Assembly: GCA_016932415.1 (NCBI GenBank)
Contig: JAFGCX010000010.1
Location: 62,001-126,000, forward strand
Source of the DNA: Candidatus Krumholzibacteriota bacterium
GTDB taxonomy: Bacteria; Krumholzibacteriota; Krumholzibacteriia; Krumholzibacteriales; Krumholzibacteriaceae
DNA length: 64,000 nucleotides
Direction of reading: 5' to 3'
The translations under genes were made by a program, and so were the position numbers. The notes under the pieces were generated by a model. The model did not search any database and was not told the DNA's origin. It worked only from the letters and a program-made list of their open reading frames with translations. Shown here piece after piece: positions 5,028 to 10,838 of this stretch (the first letter of the stretch is position 1; each line of letters starts with the position of its first letter).

Positions 5028-6029
5028 TTGGTTCCTGAGAGCCCGGGAAAAATGGACGACCTTTTCACGGTAAGCAGGGTCTGCCTGGCTCCGCTGGCCG
5101 GTTATTCCGACGCGCCTTACAGGCTGCTCTGTGGGGAAGCTGGGGCTGATTTCTGCGTGACGGAGATGGTAAGCGCCGATGGCCTGGCCAGGGGTGGGGA
5201 TAAAACGGAAAGGATCATCGACAGGATGAACGGTGAAGTTCCCCTGGGGATCCAGCTTTTCGGATCGAAACCGGAAGTTTTTGCCGAAGCCGCGGCGGTC
5301 GTGGCGGGCGGGGATTTCGCTTTTATAGATCTGAATTTCGGTTGTCCGGTAAAAAAAGTAATTAAAAAAAACGGTGGATCGGCGATCATGCGCGATCTTG
5401 GCCTGATGGAAAAGATATGTGCAGCAGTTGTCGAAACTGTCGATCTTCCTGTCACGGCAAAGATACGGAGCGGTTGGAACCGTATGGAAGAGAATTATAT
5501 GGAAGCGGGCAAGGTCGTCGAAGATGCCGGAGTGAAAGCGATAGTGATGCATCCAAGGTACCGAAGCCAGGGATTTTCGGGGAAGGCGGACTGGGAGCTT
5601 ATAGCAAGATTGAAAGAAACTGTATCGATTCCGGTGATAGCGAACGGCGACGTAAAAAGTGTTGATGATTACTTTGAGATCGTGGAATCGACGGGTTGCG
5701 CTCTTGTCATGATAGGAAGGGGAGCTCTTGGCGCGCCATCGATATTCCGCCAGATAAAGGAGAGGCTTCGGGGGAGCGAGGCACGGGAAGTCTCCATGGA
5801 CGAAACGGTCGATCTGCTTGAACGATTGTTCAGAATGGAGATAGAATGGAAAGGTGACCGGCTCGGGCTTCTCGAGATGAGGAAGTTCTACCGGTGGTTT
5901 CTCAGGGGTCATGAGGGAATGAAGGATTACAGGCGGAGACTCGCCGTAGCGGGACTTGCCGAAGAGGTATTGGAAATATTTTCAGATCTCAGGGAGGATA
6001 TTAAAAAAAGATGGAAGAGAACCGGATAA
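5028..6029 (+). CDS. dus: tRNA-dihydrouridine synthase
   Basis: An FMN-dependent enzyme that reduces uridine to dihydrouridine in tRNA, 333 residues, in the usual size range. Seen: LAPLAGYSDAPYR near the N-terminus, the FGCPVKKV segment containing the catalytic cysteine region, the GGSAIMRD segment, KIRSGW, and IANGDVKSVDD plus MIGRGALGAP in the FMN phosphate-binding part. The TTG at 5028 follows AGGGAGAA; an ATG at 5052 is an alternative. The 3' end overlaps larB by 19 nt, an arrangement that implies cotranscription. Confidence 0.9.
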   Translation: MVPESPGKMDDLFTVSRVCLAPLAGYSDAPYRLLCGEAGADFCVTEMVSADGLARGGDKTERIIDRMNGEVPLGIQLFGSKPEVFAEAAAVVAGGDFAFIDLNFGCPVKKVIKKNGGSAIMRDLGLMEKICAAVVETVDLPVTAKIRSGWNRMEENYMEAGKVVEDAGVKAIVMHPRYRSQGFSGKADWELIARLKETVSIPVIANGDVKSVDDYFEIVESTGCALVMIGRGALGAPSIFRQIKERLRGSEAREVSMDETVDLLERLFRMEIEWKGDRLGLLEMRKFYRWFLRGHEGMKDYRRRLAVAGLAEEVLEIFSDLREDIKKRWKRTG

Positions 6030-6787
6030 AGAGACTGCTCGAAGAGGTCGCATCTGGCAAAATGACTGCCGAAGAAGCGGTGGACAGGTTAAGGATCCTA
6101 CCATACGAGGATATAAAATATGCCAAGGTCGATCACCACAGGGCTCTGAGGCGGGGAGTGCCTGAAGTCATCTTCTGCCAGGGCAAGACTGACGAGCAGA
6201 TAATCGGAATAGCGGGAAAGATCATCGACCAGGGAGCAGATCTTCTGGCGACGAGATGCGATGCCTCAACGTTCTCGAGGATAGGAAAAAAGATTCCGGG
6301 AGCGGTCTTTCACAGTGAAGCCTCTCTTTTTGCCGTTGTTCAGAAGGAGATCGGCAGGAAAGGCAGAGTCGCGATTGTAAGCGCCGGGACTTCAGACCTT
6401 TCCGTTGCTGAAGAGGCTGCTTTCACCGCTTATTATTTCGGTTGTCAGGTCGATCGGTTCAACGATGTCGGCGTGGCCGGGATCCATCGTCTTTTTTCAT
6501 GCTGGGAGGATATCAGGAAGGCGGATGTGATAATCGTCGTCGCCGGCATGGAAGGGGCGCTTGCGAGCGTGGTGGCAGGTATAGCCGAATCACCAATCAT
6601 CGCTGTACCGACAAGCGTGGGATATGGAGCGAGTTTCGGAGGGCTTGCCGCTCTGCTTGCGATGCTGAACAGTTGCGCGGGTGGAGTCACAGTCGTAAAT
6701 ATCGATAACGGTTTCGGCGCGGCATACGCCGCCGCGATGATATGCAGGAAGATCTGCATGGGAGACCGGACGGAAAAAGGAGAATGA
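6011..6787 (+). CDS. larB: Nickel-pincer cofactor biosynthesis protein LarB
   Basis: LarB carboxylates nicotinic acid adenine dinucleotide and hydrolyses its phosphoanhydride, the first step in making the nickel-pincer cofactor of lactate racemase-type enzymes. The 258-residue protein shows an N-terminal helical part (EEVASGKMTAEEAV), GVPEVIFCQGKT, then the PurE-like core with VSAGTSDLSVAEEA and VPTSVGYGASFGG. It overlaps dus by 19 nt and is followed by larC after 87 nt. No larE or larA is present in this window, so the later sulfur-insertion step and the user enzyme must be elsewhere. Confidence 0.88.
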   Translation: MEENRIKRLLEEVASGKMTAEEAVDRLRILPYEDIKYAKVDHHRALRRGVPEVIFCQGKTDEQIIGIAGKIIDQGADLLATRCDASTFSRIGKKIPGAVFHSEASLFAVVQKEIGRKGRVAIVSAGTSDLSVAEEAAFTAYYFGCQVDRFNDVGVAGIHRLFSCWEDIRKADVIIVVAGMEGALASVVAGIAESPIIAVPTSVGYGASFGGLAALLAMLNSCAGGVTVVNIDNGFGAAYAAAMICRKICMGDRTEKGE

Positions 6788-6874
6788 TCCTGACCTGATC
6801 GCAATGACTTGCATGTTCCCGACCGATGGTAGGAGATCGATCCGGTAAGCGGTGGCGGGAGCGGGGATTCTAAC

Positions 6875-8119
6875 ATGGGGGATGAATTGAAAAGTAAAAT
6901 CAAAAAAAATCCGGGGATACTTCTGGTAGACCCCGCGGCCGGATTAAGCGGCGACATGTTTCTTGGATGTCTCTTTGCCCTCGGAGCTGATCCCAAAAAA
7001 GTTGCGGAGGCAGTTTCGAGCCTGCCGGGGCTTGAGCCTTTCAAGATCGTCTATGGCAGGGTAAAACGGCAGGGGATATCAGCCGTCAGGGCAAGGGTCG
7101 TCTGCGCCGATTCGGCAGGATCGAGAGATCTCAGAAAGATACTTTCAATGATCAAGAGAAGCGGCCTCGACGCTGATATCAAGGAAAAAGCTTCAAGGAT
7201 CTTCCGGGTTCTCGGGGAAGCTGAGGGAAAGATTCATGGAGTACCGATGGAAAAGGTGCATTTCCACGAGGTGGGCGCGGTAGATTCGATCGTCGATATA
7301 GTAGGAGCTGCTGTCGCGCTTGATCAACTCGGAAGCCCCGAACTGTACCACAGGCCGTTCAGGCTTGGAGGAGGCATGATATCGATATCCCACGGGCTCT
7401 TGCCGCTGCCCGCGCCTGCGACTGTCGAACTTCTCAGCGGCCGGACTGTCACGATGACCGGCGAGAAAGGGGAGATAGTGACTCCCACGGGAGCTGCGAT
7501 CATGAAAGCCCTTGCCTCGGAATTATCTCCCACGGAGTCTTTTTTGATCGGGAGGACAGTGTACTCGGTCGGTACGAGAGAATCAATCGATGGACCTGGC
7601 AGGTTGAGGATAATGGAGGCTGAAAGAACCGCAAAGGGAGCTTCGGTGGCGGTCATTAGAACGACGATCGATGATATGAATCCGGAGATATTCGGATATC
7701 TTCAGGAGAGACTTTTTAACGCGAATGCTCTTGATGTATATCTGACCCAGGTCGTTATGAAGAAAAACAGGCCGGGGACTCTTCTGACCGTGCTCTGTGA
7801 ACCGGAAGAAAGAGAGAAGATCGTCTCTATAATATTCTCAGAGAGTTCGACGATAGGGATGAGGATCAGTATCGAGCAGAGAGCGGAACTGGAAAGGTGG
7901 AAAGGGAAAGTAGAAACGCCTTATGGGACGATCGAACTGAAATGCGCCCGTCTGCCCGATGGTACGGTCCGCGTATCGCCTGAGTATGAATCGTGCAGGG
8001 TTGCGGCGATCAGTAGTGGTGAGCCGATAGGCGCGATATACGAATCGGCTAAAGCATGTCAGGGTCTGTCAGGAAAAGGCGAAAAGGTTCCGGTCAGGAT
8101 AGGAAAAAGGGTGAAGTGA
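6875..8119 (+). CDS. larC: Nickel-pincer cofactor biosynthesis protein LarC (nickel insertion)
   Basis: LarC is the CTP-dependent nickel insertase (cyclometallase) that finishes the nickel-pincer nucleotide. The 414-residue protein starts with VDPAAGLSGDMFLG, the family hallmark, and carries the histidine-containing HFHEVGAVDSIVD segment and a C-terminal domain beginning near TTIDDMNPEIFGY. Some lactobacilli need a programmed frameshift to join LarC1 and LarC2; here both halves are in one continuous frame. The stop overlaps the ATG of the lipoprotein gene (ATGA). Confidence 0.9.
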   Translation: MGDELKSKIKKNPGILLVDPAAGLSGDMFLGCLFALGADPKKVAEAVSSLPGLEPFKIVYGRVKRQGISAVRARVVCADSAGSRDLRKILSMIKRSGLDADIKEKASRIFRVLGEAEGKIHGVPMEKVHFHEVGAVDSIVDIVGAAVALDQLGSPELYHRPFRLGGGMISISHGLLPLPAPATVELLSGRTVTMTGEKGEIVTPTGAAIMKALASELSPTESFLIGRTVYSVGTRESIDGPGRLRIMEAERTAKGASVAVIRTTIDDMNPEIFGYLQERLFNANALDVYLTQVVMKKNRPGTLLTVLCEPEEREKIVSIIFSESSTIGMRISIEQRAELERWKGKVETPYGTIELKCARLPDGTVRVSPEYESCRVAAISSGEPIGAIYESAKACQGLSGKGEKVPVRIGKRVK

Positions 8120-8868
8120 TGAGGACGGCCACCATGATATCGGCGATATGCCTTGTTTTTTTCCTCTCCTGCTCTTCGACCAGACAACTGAGGACGGGGA
8201 AGGTCTATGAGAAAGTGATTACCCACAAGGTCGGTGCCGATGATACATGGGGATCGATAGCTGAATCATACTATGGTGACAGGGATCGGGCGGAGCAGCT
8301 TGCCGGATATAACGGGGCCGGTGATCTTGCGCCGCCTGAAAACGGTTCCGGTGTGAAGATCCCTATGAGCCGGAGCGATCTGGCCCAGTTCGACAGGAGG
8401 CTGGAAGCGGTCAGAAAGTATAATGATGGTATCGGTCTTGTCTCGGAGGGCAGGTTCAGGGAAGCTGTCGGAATATTCCAGGAAGCGCTCAGGATCAATC
8501 CTTCCTTTCCCGACGCATCGTTCAACCTCGCCGTTACATACCAGAGACTCTCCCTCTATAAAGATGCCGCCGAGGTTCTTGAAACCCTTGTTACCAGGGA
8601 AAAAGGTAATCCGGAATATTTTTATGCTCTGGGGGCTTCATATTTTCATATGAAAGATTATGTAAAAGCAAAACGATCATTCCAGGATGCCCTTGTTATT
8701 GATGGGGTTCACCTCAAATCGCTCTTTTCCCTCGCGGTCGTTTATGAGAAATCGGGCGATTACCAGGACGCGGAAAAATGCTGGGAAAAATATATCGGGG
8801 CAAGCGAAGAAGGACAGTGGATGGAAGAGGCGAAATCGCGTCTGCAGTCGCTTCGCGACATGAGATGA
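8119..8868 (+). CDS. Lipoprotein with LysM-like and TPR domains
   Basis: A 249-residue envelope protein. The N-terminus is a lipoprotein signal (hydrophobic stretch ending LSCSS, cysteine at about residue 16). It is followed by a LysM-like peptidoglycan-binding region (about 30-80, with TWGSIAESYYGD) and three to four TPR units (about 95-235, e.g. GRFREAVGIFQEALRINP and KAKRSFQDALVID). The start was set at the ATG overlapping the larC stop, because the longer frame begins inside larC. No link to nickel chemistry is visible; it may simply share the transcript. Confidence 0.75.
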   Translation: MRTATMISAICLVFFLSCSSTRQLRTGKVYEKVITHKVGADDTWGSIAESYYGDRDRAEQLAGYNGAGDLAPPENGSGVKIPMSRSDLAQFDRRLEAVRKYNDGIGLVSEGRFREAVGIFQEALRINPSFPDASFNLAVTYQRLSLYKDAAEVLETLVTREKGNPEYFYALGASYFHMKDYVKAKRSFQDALVIDGVHLKSLFSLAVVYEKSGDYQDAEKCWEKYIGASEEGQWMEEAKSRLQSLRDMR

Positions 8869-9087
8869 CCGGATCGATCACGAACCAATCATTAAATACG
8901 TAAAGTATTTTCCATTCCAGACGATTATCAATAACGCGACCGAAGAAATCCGTTACTCAGAGGGGTTCTCTGAAGAAAGACGGACCCATATAAAAAAATA
9001 ATGATTTCACGCGGGCTGGCCGACCGATGCTAATGGAACAGAGATTTGCAACAATCGGGGGAAATCGTGCCTGTCCGCGTTTTTTTA

Positions 9088-9116
9088 TTGACATCTTCAA
9101 GTAAAAGACATAAACT
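9088..9116 (+). promoter_or_regulatory. Sigma-70-type promoter for the Fic gene
   Basis: A perfect -35 TTGACA (9088-9093) is followed after 17 nt by TAAACT (9111-9116), which matches the -10 consensus at four of six positions. It lies about 100 nt upstream of the Fic start, in AT-rich DNA. Confidence 0.6.
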
Positions 9117-9139: not shown

Positions 9140-9156
9140 TATTCTAAAATAGAATA
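9140..9156. promoter_or_regulatory. Perfect 7-bp inverted repeat, possible operator
   Basis: TATTCTA-AAA-TAGAATA lies about 25 bp downstream of the predicted -10 element, near the expected transcription start +15 to +35. A repressor bound here would block transcription. The Fic protein encoded next has a C-terminal winged-helix domain, so autoregulation is possible but unproven. Confidence 0.45.
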
Positions 9157-9214
9157 ACTGTTTAATAATAAAAGATATATATAGACATAATAAAACCCTA
9201 AGATATGGACAAAA

Positions 9215-10393
9215 ATGACTTTTGATTACCTTTCAACTCATCCCTGGATCAAATTTGAGGTTGATATGCGAAAGATGCCTCCACACCTCTGGGAGATGCT
9301 CGGAAAGGCTGAGTACGGATCATCTGTCATCCGGTCTATTCCCGCTGATCCGGACGAGGTCTCCGCGATTGTCTCGGATGCCAGAGCGCGGGGACTCTTT
9401 GGATGCGCTTCTCTCGACGGGAGCAGCCTTTCGCTTGATGAAATCCGCAATCTCACGGATCGCTCAGCACTGACCGGTATCGGGAACCAGAAGCAGAGGG
9501 ATGAACTGGCCTCCCTTGGAAAAACATTCGCATCGGTGGAGGAGAGAAACGGCAGTCCAGGCAGACGATGGGATATAACCCCCGAGGATATTATAGCTTT
9601 TAATCGGTCTCTTTTTGAAAAAGTCGATAAAAATGATTCCGGGAAAGGATACGTTGGAAGAGAGACAGGTATCAGGAAGGGGAAGATAGATCTGTCCGGC
9701 TACCAGGGTGTTCCGGCACGAGATTGCCGGTATCTTCTCGAAAGGTTATGTTCGGGATTATCATCGATAAGAGAATCTTTTCCTCTCGGGGAGGGGATCA
9801 TAAGCGCTCTCCTGACAGGTATGCTGGCACATATATATCTTTCGTGGATCCTGCCGTTCAGTGAGGGAAACGGACGCACCGCCAGGATCGTCGAATTCCA
9901 GATACTCTCCGCCTCGGGGATACCTGAATCTGTTTTGTACCTTCTGAACGAGTACTATTTCAGGACACAGAGGGATTATCAGGCCAACCTCTACTCGGAT
10001 CCCCTGCCTTCGGGTGACCTGATACCTTTTATGACATATTCCATCGGGGGGCTTATATCTGTGACTGGCAGATATCTGGAACGATTGTTCCTTAACAGTG
10101 AGCAGACAGTGTGGGAGGATCATATCCGGCAAAAGTTCAGTCGGGAGAAAGGTAAAAAGGCGGAAAGGCAAAAGATACTGGTGATAGAGATATCGAGAGA
10201 GCAAGGGCCGGTATCTTCCTCATCAATCAGATATCTGACGCGCCGGGTCGCGAAAGCTTATGAAGGGACAGGTGAGAAGACTATTGCGAGGGACCTGAAA
10301 AGGCTCGTCGATTTGGGGCTTATTGAACGATCACGAGGAATTCTCAGAGCAAGGAAAGAATTACTGAGAAAATGTGGAGGCTTCCCTCGATAG
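9215..10393 (+). CDS. Fic-fold protein with C-terminal winged helix; catalytic His replaced by Leu
   Basis: A 392-residue Fic protein. The N-terminal part carries ASLDGSSLSLDEIR (residues 65-78), which aligns with the inhibitory-helix region usually ending in E-G/N, here Asp68-Gly69. The Fic motif region is WILPFSEGNGRTAR: the anion-hole residues Gly218-Asn219-Gly220-Arg221 are intact, but the histidine that normally precedes PF is Leu213 (codon CTG). AMPylation normally needs that histidine, so the enzyme is predicted inactive as a transferase or changed in function. A winged-helix DNA-binding domain follows at about 315-385. It is first in a likely operon with an NTF2-like and a cupin gene. 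Confidence 0.85.
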   Translation: MTFDYLSTHPWIKFEVDMRKMPPHLWEMLGKAEYGSSVIRSIPADPDEVSAIVSDARARGLFGCASLDGSSLSLDEIRNLTDRSALTGIGNQKQRDELASLGKTFASVEERNGSPGRRWDITPEDIIAFNRSLFEKVDKNDSGKGYVGRETGIRKGKIDLSGYQGVPARDCRYLLERLCSGLSSIRESFPLGEGIISALLTGMLAHIYLSWILPFSEGNGRTARIVEFQILSASGIPESVLYLLNEYYFRTQRDYQANLYSDPLPSGDLIPFMTYSIGGLISVTGRYLERLFLNSEQTVWEDHIRQKFSREKGKKAERQKILVIEISREQGPVSSSSIRYLTRRVAKAYEGTGEKTIARDLKRLVDLGLIERSRGILRARKELLRKCGGFPR

Positions 10394-10418: not shown

Positions 10419-10838
10419 ATGGACAGGCTTTCAAGGGGGGATATCGAAGCGATCCTCGACAGGTGGCTCGATGCCTGGGACAGGTACGATCTTTCCGGTG
10501 TGATCGAACCGTTCGCTGAAAAGATCGTCTTCGAGCACTGGGACGGAAAAAGAATAAAGGGGAAGAAGCAGCTTCTTCTGGCATGGAGAAAATGGTTCGA
10601 TGATAACGGCGGGTTTAAATTCGTTAAGGAAGAGATATTCATCGATGAGACTGCGCAGAAAGCACTTTTCAGATGGACCTACAGGGGACCGGCGTTCAGC
10701 GACCGCTACCGGGGCGGGGAGGAAGTCAGAAAAGGTATCGATATTCTGGTTTTTAAAAGCGGCAGGATCGTTGAGAAATCATCATACTCAAAGACAATGA
10801 TCGAGATAGATGGGAAAACACTGAAATCGGAGCGTTAA
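10419..10838 (+). CDS. NTF2/SnoaL-like domain protein
   Basis: A 139-residue single-domain protein with the cone-shaped NTF2/SnoaL pattern: an N-terminal helix pair (DIEAILDRWLDAWDRYDLSG), VIEPFAEKIVFEHWDGKRIKG, then alternating strands ending with KSGRIVEKSSY. Such folds bind or transform small molecules, and the ligand cannot be told here. The start at 10419 has AAAGGAGATAT directly before it; the longer frame overlaps the Fic gene. It is followed by the cupin gene after 14 nt. Confidence 0.65.
   Translation: MDRLSRGDIEAILDRWLDAWDRYDLSGVIEPFAEKIVFEHWDGKRIKGKKQLLLAWRKWFDDNGGFKFVKEEIFIDETAQKALFRWTYRGPAFSDRYRGGEEVRKGIDILVFKSGRIVEKSSYSKTMIEIDGKTLKSER

Follow-up and report, generated by a model that had tools for sequence, protein, structure and literature searches.

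Gene content and altered Fic motifs

The window, by which we mean the whole 64-kb stretch of DNA analysed, carries on its forward strand a Fic-domain gene that follows a conserved block of genes and precedes a SnoaL-like gene (Table 1). The product of the Fic gene scores 33.3 bits against the Pfam Fic profile (PF02661), above the cut-off of 24, and no other Fic gene was found in the window's genome by a Pfam Fic scan.

Table 1. Positions of the features of the Fic locus within the window
Feature	Positions	Strand	Basis
Conserved upstream block: Dus, LarB-like (AIRC), LarC-like (Ni_insertion), TPR protein	5028..8868	+	Pfam, gene order
Promoter-like TTGACA-17-TAAACT	9088..9116	+	Consensus match only; 3 in region vs 1.4 expected
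Operator-like AGACA at -109, between the -35 and -10 hexamers	9106..9110	+	Repeat scan
Perfect inverted repeat TATTCTA-AAA-TAGAATA, between operator-like repeats	9140..9156	.	Sequence
Operator-like AGACA(TAAT) at -32	9183..9187	+	Repeat scan
Operator-like GGACA at -8, 24 bp from previous repeat	9207..9211	+	Repeat scan; active-type -8 position
Fic-domain protein with C-terminal winged helix, 392 aa, probable pseudoenzyme	9215..10393	+	Pfam, AlphaFold2, Foldseek
Diverged inhibitory motif C-A-S-L-D68-G-S, residues 64-70	9404..9424	+	Translation, alignment with relatives
CTG codon, Leu213, at the catalytic His position	9851..9853	+	ORF translation
FIC motif LPFSEGNGRTAR, residues 213-224	9851..9886	+	Translation, alignment with relatives
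C-terminal winged helix, residues 331-384; 8/8 family-conserved positions kept	10205..10366	+	Alignment, AlphaFold2 model
Putative recognition helix, residues 354-366, with K355, T356, R359, D360	10274..10312	+	Alignment, model
SnoaL-like gene, possibly co-transcribed with Fic	10419..10838	+	Pfam, gene order

Fic proteins usually attach AMP to other proteins, and they are by default read as enzymes. Catalytic AMP transferases of this type carry the motif HxFx(D/E)GN(G/K)R, which includes the catalytic histidine, and class II (self-inhibited) members carry an N-terminal inhibitory motif, (S/T)xxxE(G/N). The window protein departs from both signatures: Leu213 takes the place of the catalytic histidine, and the inhibitory motif, C64-A-S-L-D68-G-S70 versus TTAIEGN in nearly all active-type relatives, has SLDGS where the latter have AIEGN. 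A preliminary description of the locus had pointed out the leucine and the replacement of Glu by Asp68, and both are confirmed. As the CTG codon is two base changes away from either histidine codon (CAT, CAC), one miscalled base is excluded as the cause of Leu213. Glu217, G218-N-G-R221 and Arg224 are retained, and the PADLOC SoFic profile matches the protein with an E-value of 2.4e-24 despite the absent histidine.

The overall fold is that of SoFic, Dde_2494 and Coxiella CbFic2, class II proteins composed of an N-terminal segment, a Fic core and a C-terminal winged helix, from which the window protein differs in having neither the catalytic histidine nor an intact inhibitory motif. AlphaFold2 predicts both the Fic domain and the winged helix with a pLDDT of 90.9, and does so again (89.1) for L035, the most diverged complete relative. 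The Foldseek matches to the window protein model are Fic structures (probability 1.00). The nearest solved structures include 4rgl, 8cil (described as Fic protein 2 of Coxiella burnetii) and 7xux (described as a FIC-domain protein). Within the C-terminal domain, the KTxxRD region conserved in the Fic-winged-helix family is present, and the model has helices followed by a two-stranded wing. Pfam yields only a DeoR/Crp-type match below threshold for this domain, so that its identity rests on models and homology.

A His-less clade at a conserved chromosomal site

Searching 80 genomes of the phylum turned up orthologue-like genes within the same family and order, and a contig scan with an alignment as query found 319 relatives in many phyla, the best 80 of which were used; with only the window protein as query, the contig scan gave 0 matches. 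Throughout the phylum search and the best 80 of the 319 relatives, the histidine is present in all active-type relatives whose motif can be read, within HPF[GADN][DN]GNGR in nearly all cases, HPY in two, and with slight variation just after. The only members lacking it are the window protein (LPFSEGNGRTAR), L003/L031 from G016, a Candidatus Krumholzibacteriota genome (QPCGSANGLTAR), L005/L035 from G034 (LPFDTGNALTAR) and L009 from G030 (QPFEMGNEITAR), the last three coming from two Krumholzibacteriota-type families. A further protein, L013 from G019, ends before the FIC motif and has a diverged inhibitory motif (DGSL). Taking the window protein first, these four nearest motif-readable proteins have L/Q/L/Q at residue 213, E/S/T/M at 217 and R/L/L/I at 221, so that an acidic residue 217 and Arg221 occur in the window protein only, while N219 and R224 are retained in all four.

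When the motif columns are left out, a tree of 30 rows still joins the four His-less proteins in one clade (support 100/98), as does a tree of 87 rows (SH-aLRT 99), with the qualification that these members sit on long branches, of which the tree tool warns. Residues derived throughout the clade, such as G35, R57, A65, G181 and Y247, which replace K, L, T, W and H, together with synteny, speak for a single origin independently of any tree. Other Fic genes from genomes of the same family (L006, L007, L010, L011) are of the active type and branch elsewhere.

Gene order places the clade at one site. The block dus - larB-like - larC-like - TPR (names from Pfam) is conserved order-wide, and the His-less Fic gene sits after it, in one conserved slot, in both families. 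The window's genome (G000) and G016 have identical gene order, with the Fic gene followed by the SnoaL gene; G034 has the same order with one ABC gene inserted between block and Fic gene and a peptidase downstream; and G030 and G019 show matching pieces of the slot at contig ends. In G024, which belongs to the same genus as the window's genome, TPR is directly followed by SnoaL and the Fic gene is absent. Absence is in fact the rule among the genomes of the order, which are mostly fragmented drafts, and the gene, although old at this site, is therefore dispensable. Repeated loss is the simplest reading of this patchy distribution, to which transfer within the order may be an alternative.

These comparisons bear on several points raised by the preliminary description. 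It had offered a recently inactivated enzyme as one possibility, and had noted that a histidine in all close orthologues would suggest a single recent mutation or a sequencing error. The three nearest orthologues have Gln, Leu and Gln: the histidine is missing from all of them but leucine is not constant. With a loss common to two families at a conserved chromosomal site, and a codon two bases away from histidine, recent inactivation and sequencing error are both rejected. As to the GNGR loop described as kept, this is true of the window protein but not of its clade, where the other three members have ANGL, GNAL and GNEI.

Selective conservation of the winged helix

Of the positions with at least 85% conservation among active-type members, the His-less proteins retain 27/32 in the winged helix and 172/300 in the rest of the protein. 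On the catalytic surfaces (inhibitory motif, flap, FIC motif and lid) they retain 50/136, which differs from the winged helix with a Fisher p of about 1e-6; active-type members retain about 95-97% of both sets. At the level of sequence, then, the clade has kept its C-terminal winged helix selectively while its catalytic surfaces eroded.

Phased repeats in the promoters of Fic-winged-helix genes

Same-strand GGACA repeats with 12-bp phasing surround the promoters of Fic-winged-helix genes across many phyla. In upstream regions of 300 bases each (L031-L110, nearly all active-type), GGACA occurs 164 times on the gene's strand and 15 times on the reverse strand, about 26 being expected, and the commonest spacing is 12 bp. 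A copy lies at -8 in 32/73 active-type genes. This one may double as a ribosome-binding site, a role that the distal copies cannot have. The phasing also runs on into the first codons: among the 36 relatives whose start codon is followed by R-T-[YFH], 33 write R-T as NGGACA. Sites with three phased RGACA repeats numbered 7 in a scan of 25 genomes, 5 of them at active-type Fic genes, and 12 genes from other Fic subfamilies gave no GGACA enrichment (3 forward, 4 reverse). A wider regulon was also considered and rejected, phased repeat pairs elsewhere in the genomes being no more frequent than a reversed-pattern control.

Active-type genes have tandem triples; the repeats of the His-less clade are fewer and weaker, and none of its promoters still contains a strict RGACA triple. 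The last 130 bases of its four promoters contain 13 RGACA on the gene's strand and 0 on the other (1.64 expected), a count never reached in 5000 shuffles (maximum 8), which ignore the common ancestry of the promoters; moreover, the motif was first spotted by eye in a promoter set that included this clade. Of the pairwise spacings between repeats, 8/15 are among those favoured in active-type promoters, against 1.2 expected, and 0/20,000 random placements scored as high, the favoured set and its threshold having been learned from active-type data after inspection and then applied to the His-less clade. The start codons of the His-less relatives are uncertain, which makes their distances to the start approximate and leaves spacings between repeats unaffected. 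Upstream of the window gene itself there are three phased RGACA repeats, at 9106, 9183 and 9207 (spacings 77 and 24), and they form the only such trio in the 64-kb window.

The inverted repeat at 9140-9156 was examined as a separate, palindromic operator candidate. It is perfect and, with one mismatch allowed, single-copy in the window's genome, but it was not seen in relatives and was set aside.

Interpretation and alternatives

We consider it likely that the product of the window gene is an old Fic pseudoenzyme rather than an AMP transferase, and that it has been retained as a putative DNA-binding autoregulator. This reading draws on the protein sequence, the clade and the synteny, on a winged helix that was kept selectively, and on promoter repeats, their enrichment and their spacing. 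It agrees with the preliminary description in so far as the latter favoured a regulator over an AMP transferase: the histidine loss is clade-wide, and the winged helix and promoter repeats have been retained. The ancestor would have been a class II Fic protein in which an AMPylation domain was joined to a C-terminal winged helix, with 12-bp-phased GGACA around its own promoter. One Krumholzibacteriota-type lineage would have lost the catalytic histidine; the inhibitory motif and lid would have drifted, as would the metal and phosphate ligands in the relatives, while the protein retained its Fic fold and winged helix and the gene its promoter repeats. We infer that the present protein most likely acts as a transcription factor, which would bind the AGACA/GGACA repeats at 9106, 9183 and 9207 and repress its own promoter and perhaps also the downstream SnoaL gene, and that its Fic domain could serve as an oligomerisation platform or as a sensor of a ligand or partner.

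DNA-binding Fic proteins are already known, namely CccR and CbFic2, both of which have the histidine. CccR, a Fic-HTH protein of Yersinia pseudotuberculosis, represses its own promoter through repeats (PMC9755527). It resembles the window protein in joining a Fic domain to a C-terminal DNA-binding domain and in having repeats in its own promoter, but it AMPylates FtsZ, and its operator consists of two inverted 10-bp boxes set 26 bp apart, where we find same-strand repeats with 12-bp phasing (PMC9755527). CbFic2 belongs to class II and carries a DeoR-type winged HTH; DNA stimulates its activity (PMC10628234). Searches of the literature, mostly non-subscription, found no description of a His-less Fic regulator or of a phased-GGACA operator, and none linking Krumholzibacteriota and Fic.

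The preliminary description had suggested nucleotide sensing, in which the Fic pocket would bind ATP or another nucleotide via the anion hole and thereby alter DNA affinity. We regard this as unlikely, though it is the alternative that fares best. CbFic2 offers a precedent, with its link between the HTH domain and ATP affinity (PMC10628234), and the loop residues of the window protein, with N219 and R224 kept clade-wide, are compatible with it. The other three members, however, have replaced the metal acid at position 217 (by S, T and M) as well as Arg221 (by L, L and I), so that the clade has no phosphate and metal binding in common, and nucleotide sensing is not supported as its function. 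Judging from its kept Glu217, GNGR and Arg224, the window protein alone may still bind a nucleotide.

A non-catalytic scaffold, whose DNA-binding part would control only the level of the protein itself, seems improbable to us. Bartonella BepC acts without catalysis via protein-protein contacts (PMC7842960), and the Fic fold is present in both the window protein and L035 models. BepC differs in keeping the histidine, its acidic residue being replaced by Lys, and in being a secreted effector (PMC7842960). Against a scaffold, no partner is suggested by the neighbourhood of the window gene, and erosion has reached the flap and lid, where targets usually dock.

Two further alternatives are quite improbable. 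The first is another reaction catalysed without the histidine, as proposed for Fic/Doc clades with altered motifs. Doc clade D2 has the histidine replaced by Gln across a clade, in proteins that are usually single-domain and have no winged helix of the kind seen here (PMC4454073), and most of the loop is kept in the window protein. Variation within the His-less clade at 213, 217 and 221 is nevertheless unlike a conserved new active site. The second is a selfish or defence Fic decaying as a pseudogene, in line with patchy presence in the order and long branches. It is disfavoured by three complete ORFs of about 390-420 aa, with 32-38% identity, across two families, by a third-codon-position GC that resembles that of neighbouring genes, and by the region-specific conservation of winged helix and operator. 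Finally, the protein could inhibit an active Fic partner in the manner of an antitoxin, as Fic1 does for Fic2 in Campylobacter fetus (PMC5651007). This is very improbable here, as G000, G016, G030 and G034 yield no second Fic gene in a Pfam Fic scan and only G019 has another, with the reservation that the scan gives no match for the His-less proteins of G016 and G030 and a very diverged partner could escape it.

If the autoregulator reading is correct, the regulatory half of a Fic protein can survive alone after loss of the catalytic residue, and His-less Fic genes should not carry an AMP transferase annotation. The phased GGACA would moreover be a concrete candidate operator for a widespread Fic family, for which the literature searched holds no known site. 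More tentatively, and with somewhat less than even confidence, we propose that the whole lineage passed from a bifunctional AMPylase-autoregulator to a non-catalytic transcription factor, its dead Fic domain acting as a signal-sensing or oligomerisation module, and that the 12-bp-phased GGACA operator spans phyla and lies partly in the first codons.

Observations on the neighbouring sequences

The SnoaL-like gene, which has the same position in relatives whether or not they carry the Fic gene, opens with ATGGACAGG, placing a GGACA on its own start codon. The counterpart in L113 does not show this, and the match is probably due to chance.

In the gap upstream of the Fic gene, the only match to a known RNA was PreQ1, far under the cut-off. 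A terminator-like stem follows the dus-larBC-TPR block at 9006-9085 (+) in the window, with copies at 6818-6890 in L113, 7858-7934 in L153 and 7808-7882 in L161; an Rfam search of the window and L113 copies gave no match. The stem has a conserved inner loop (GACCGGTGCGAATGRAACA ... CCGGGAAAACCG) and two-sided changes in some stem pairs, and it is present both with and without the Fic gene.
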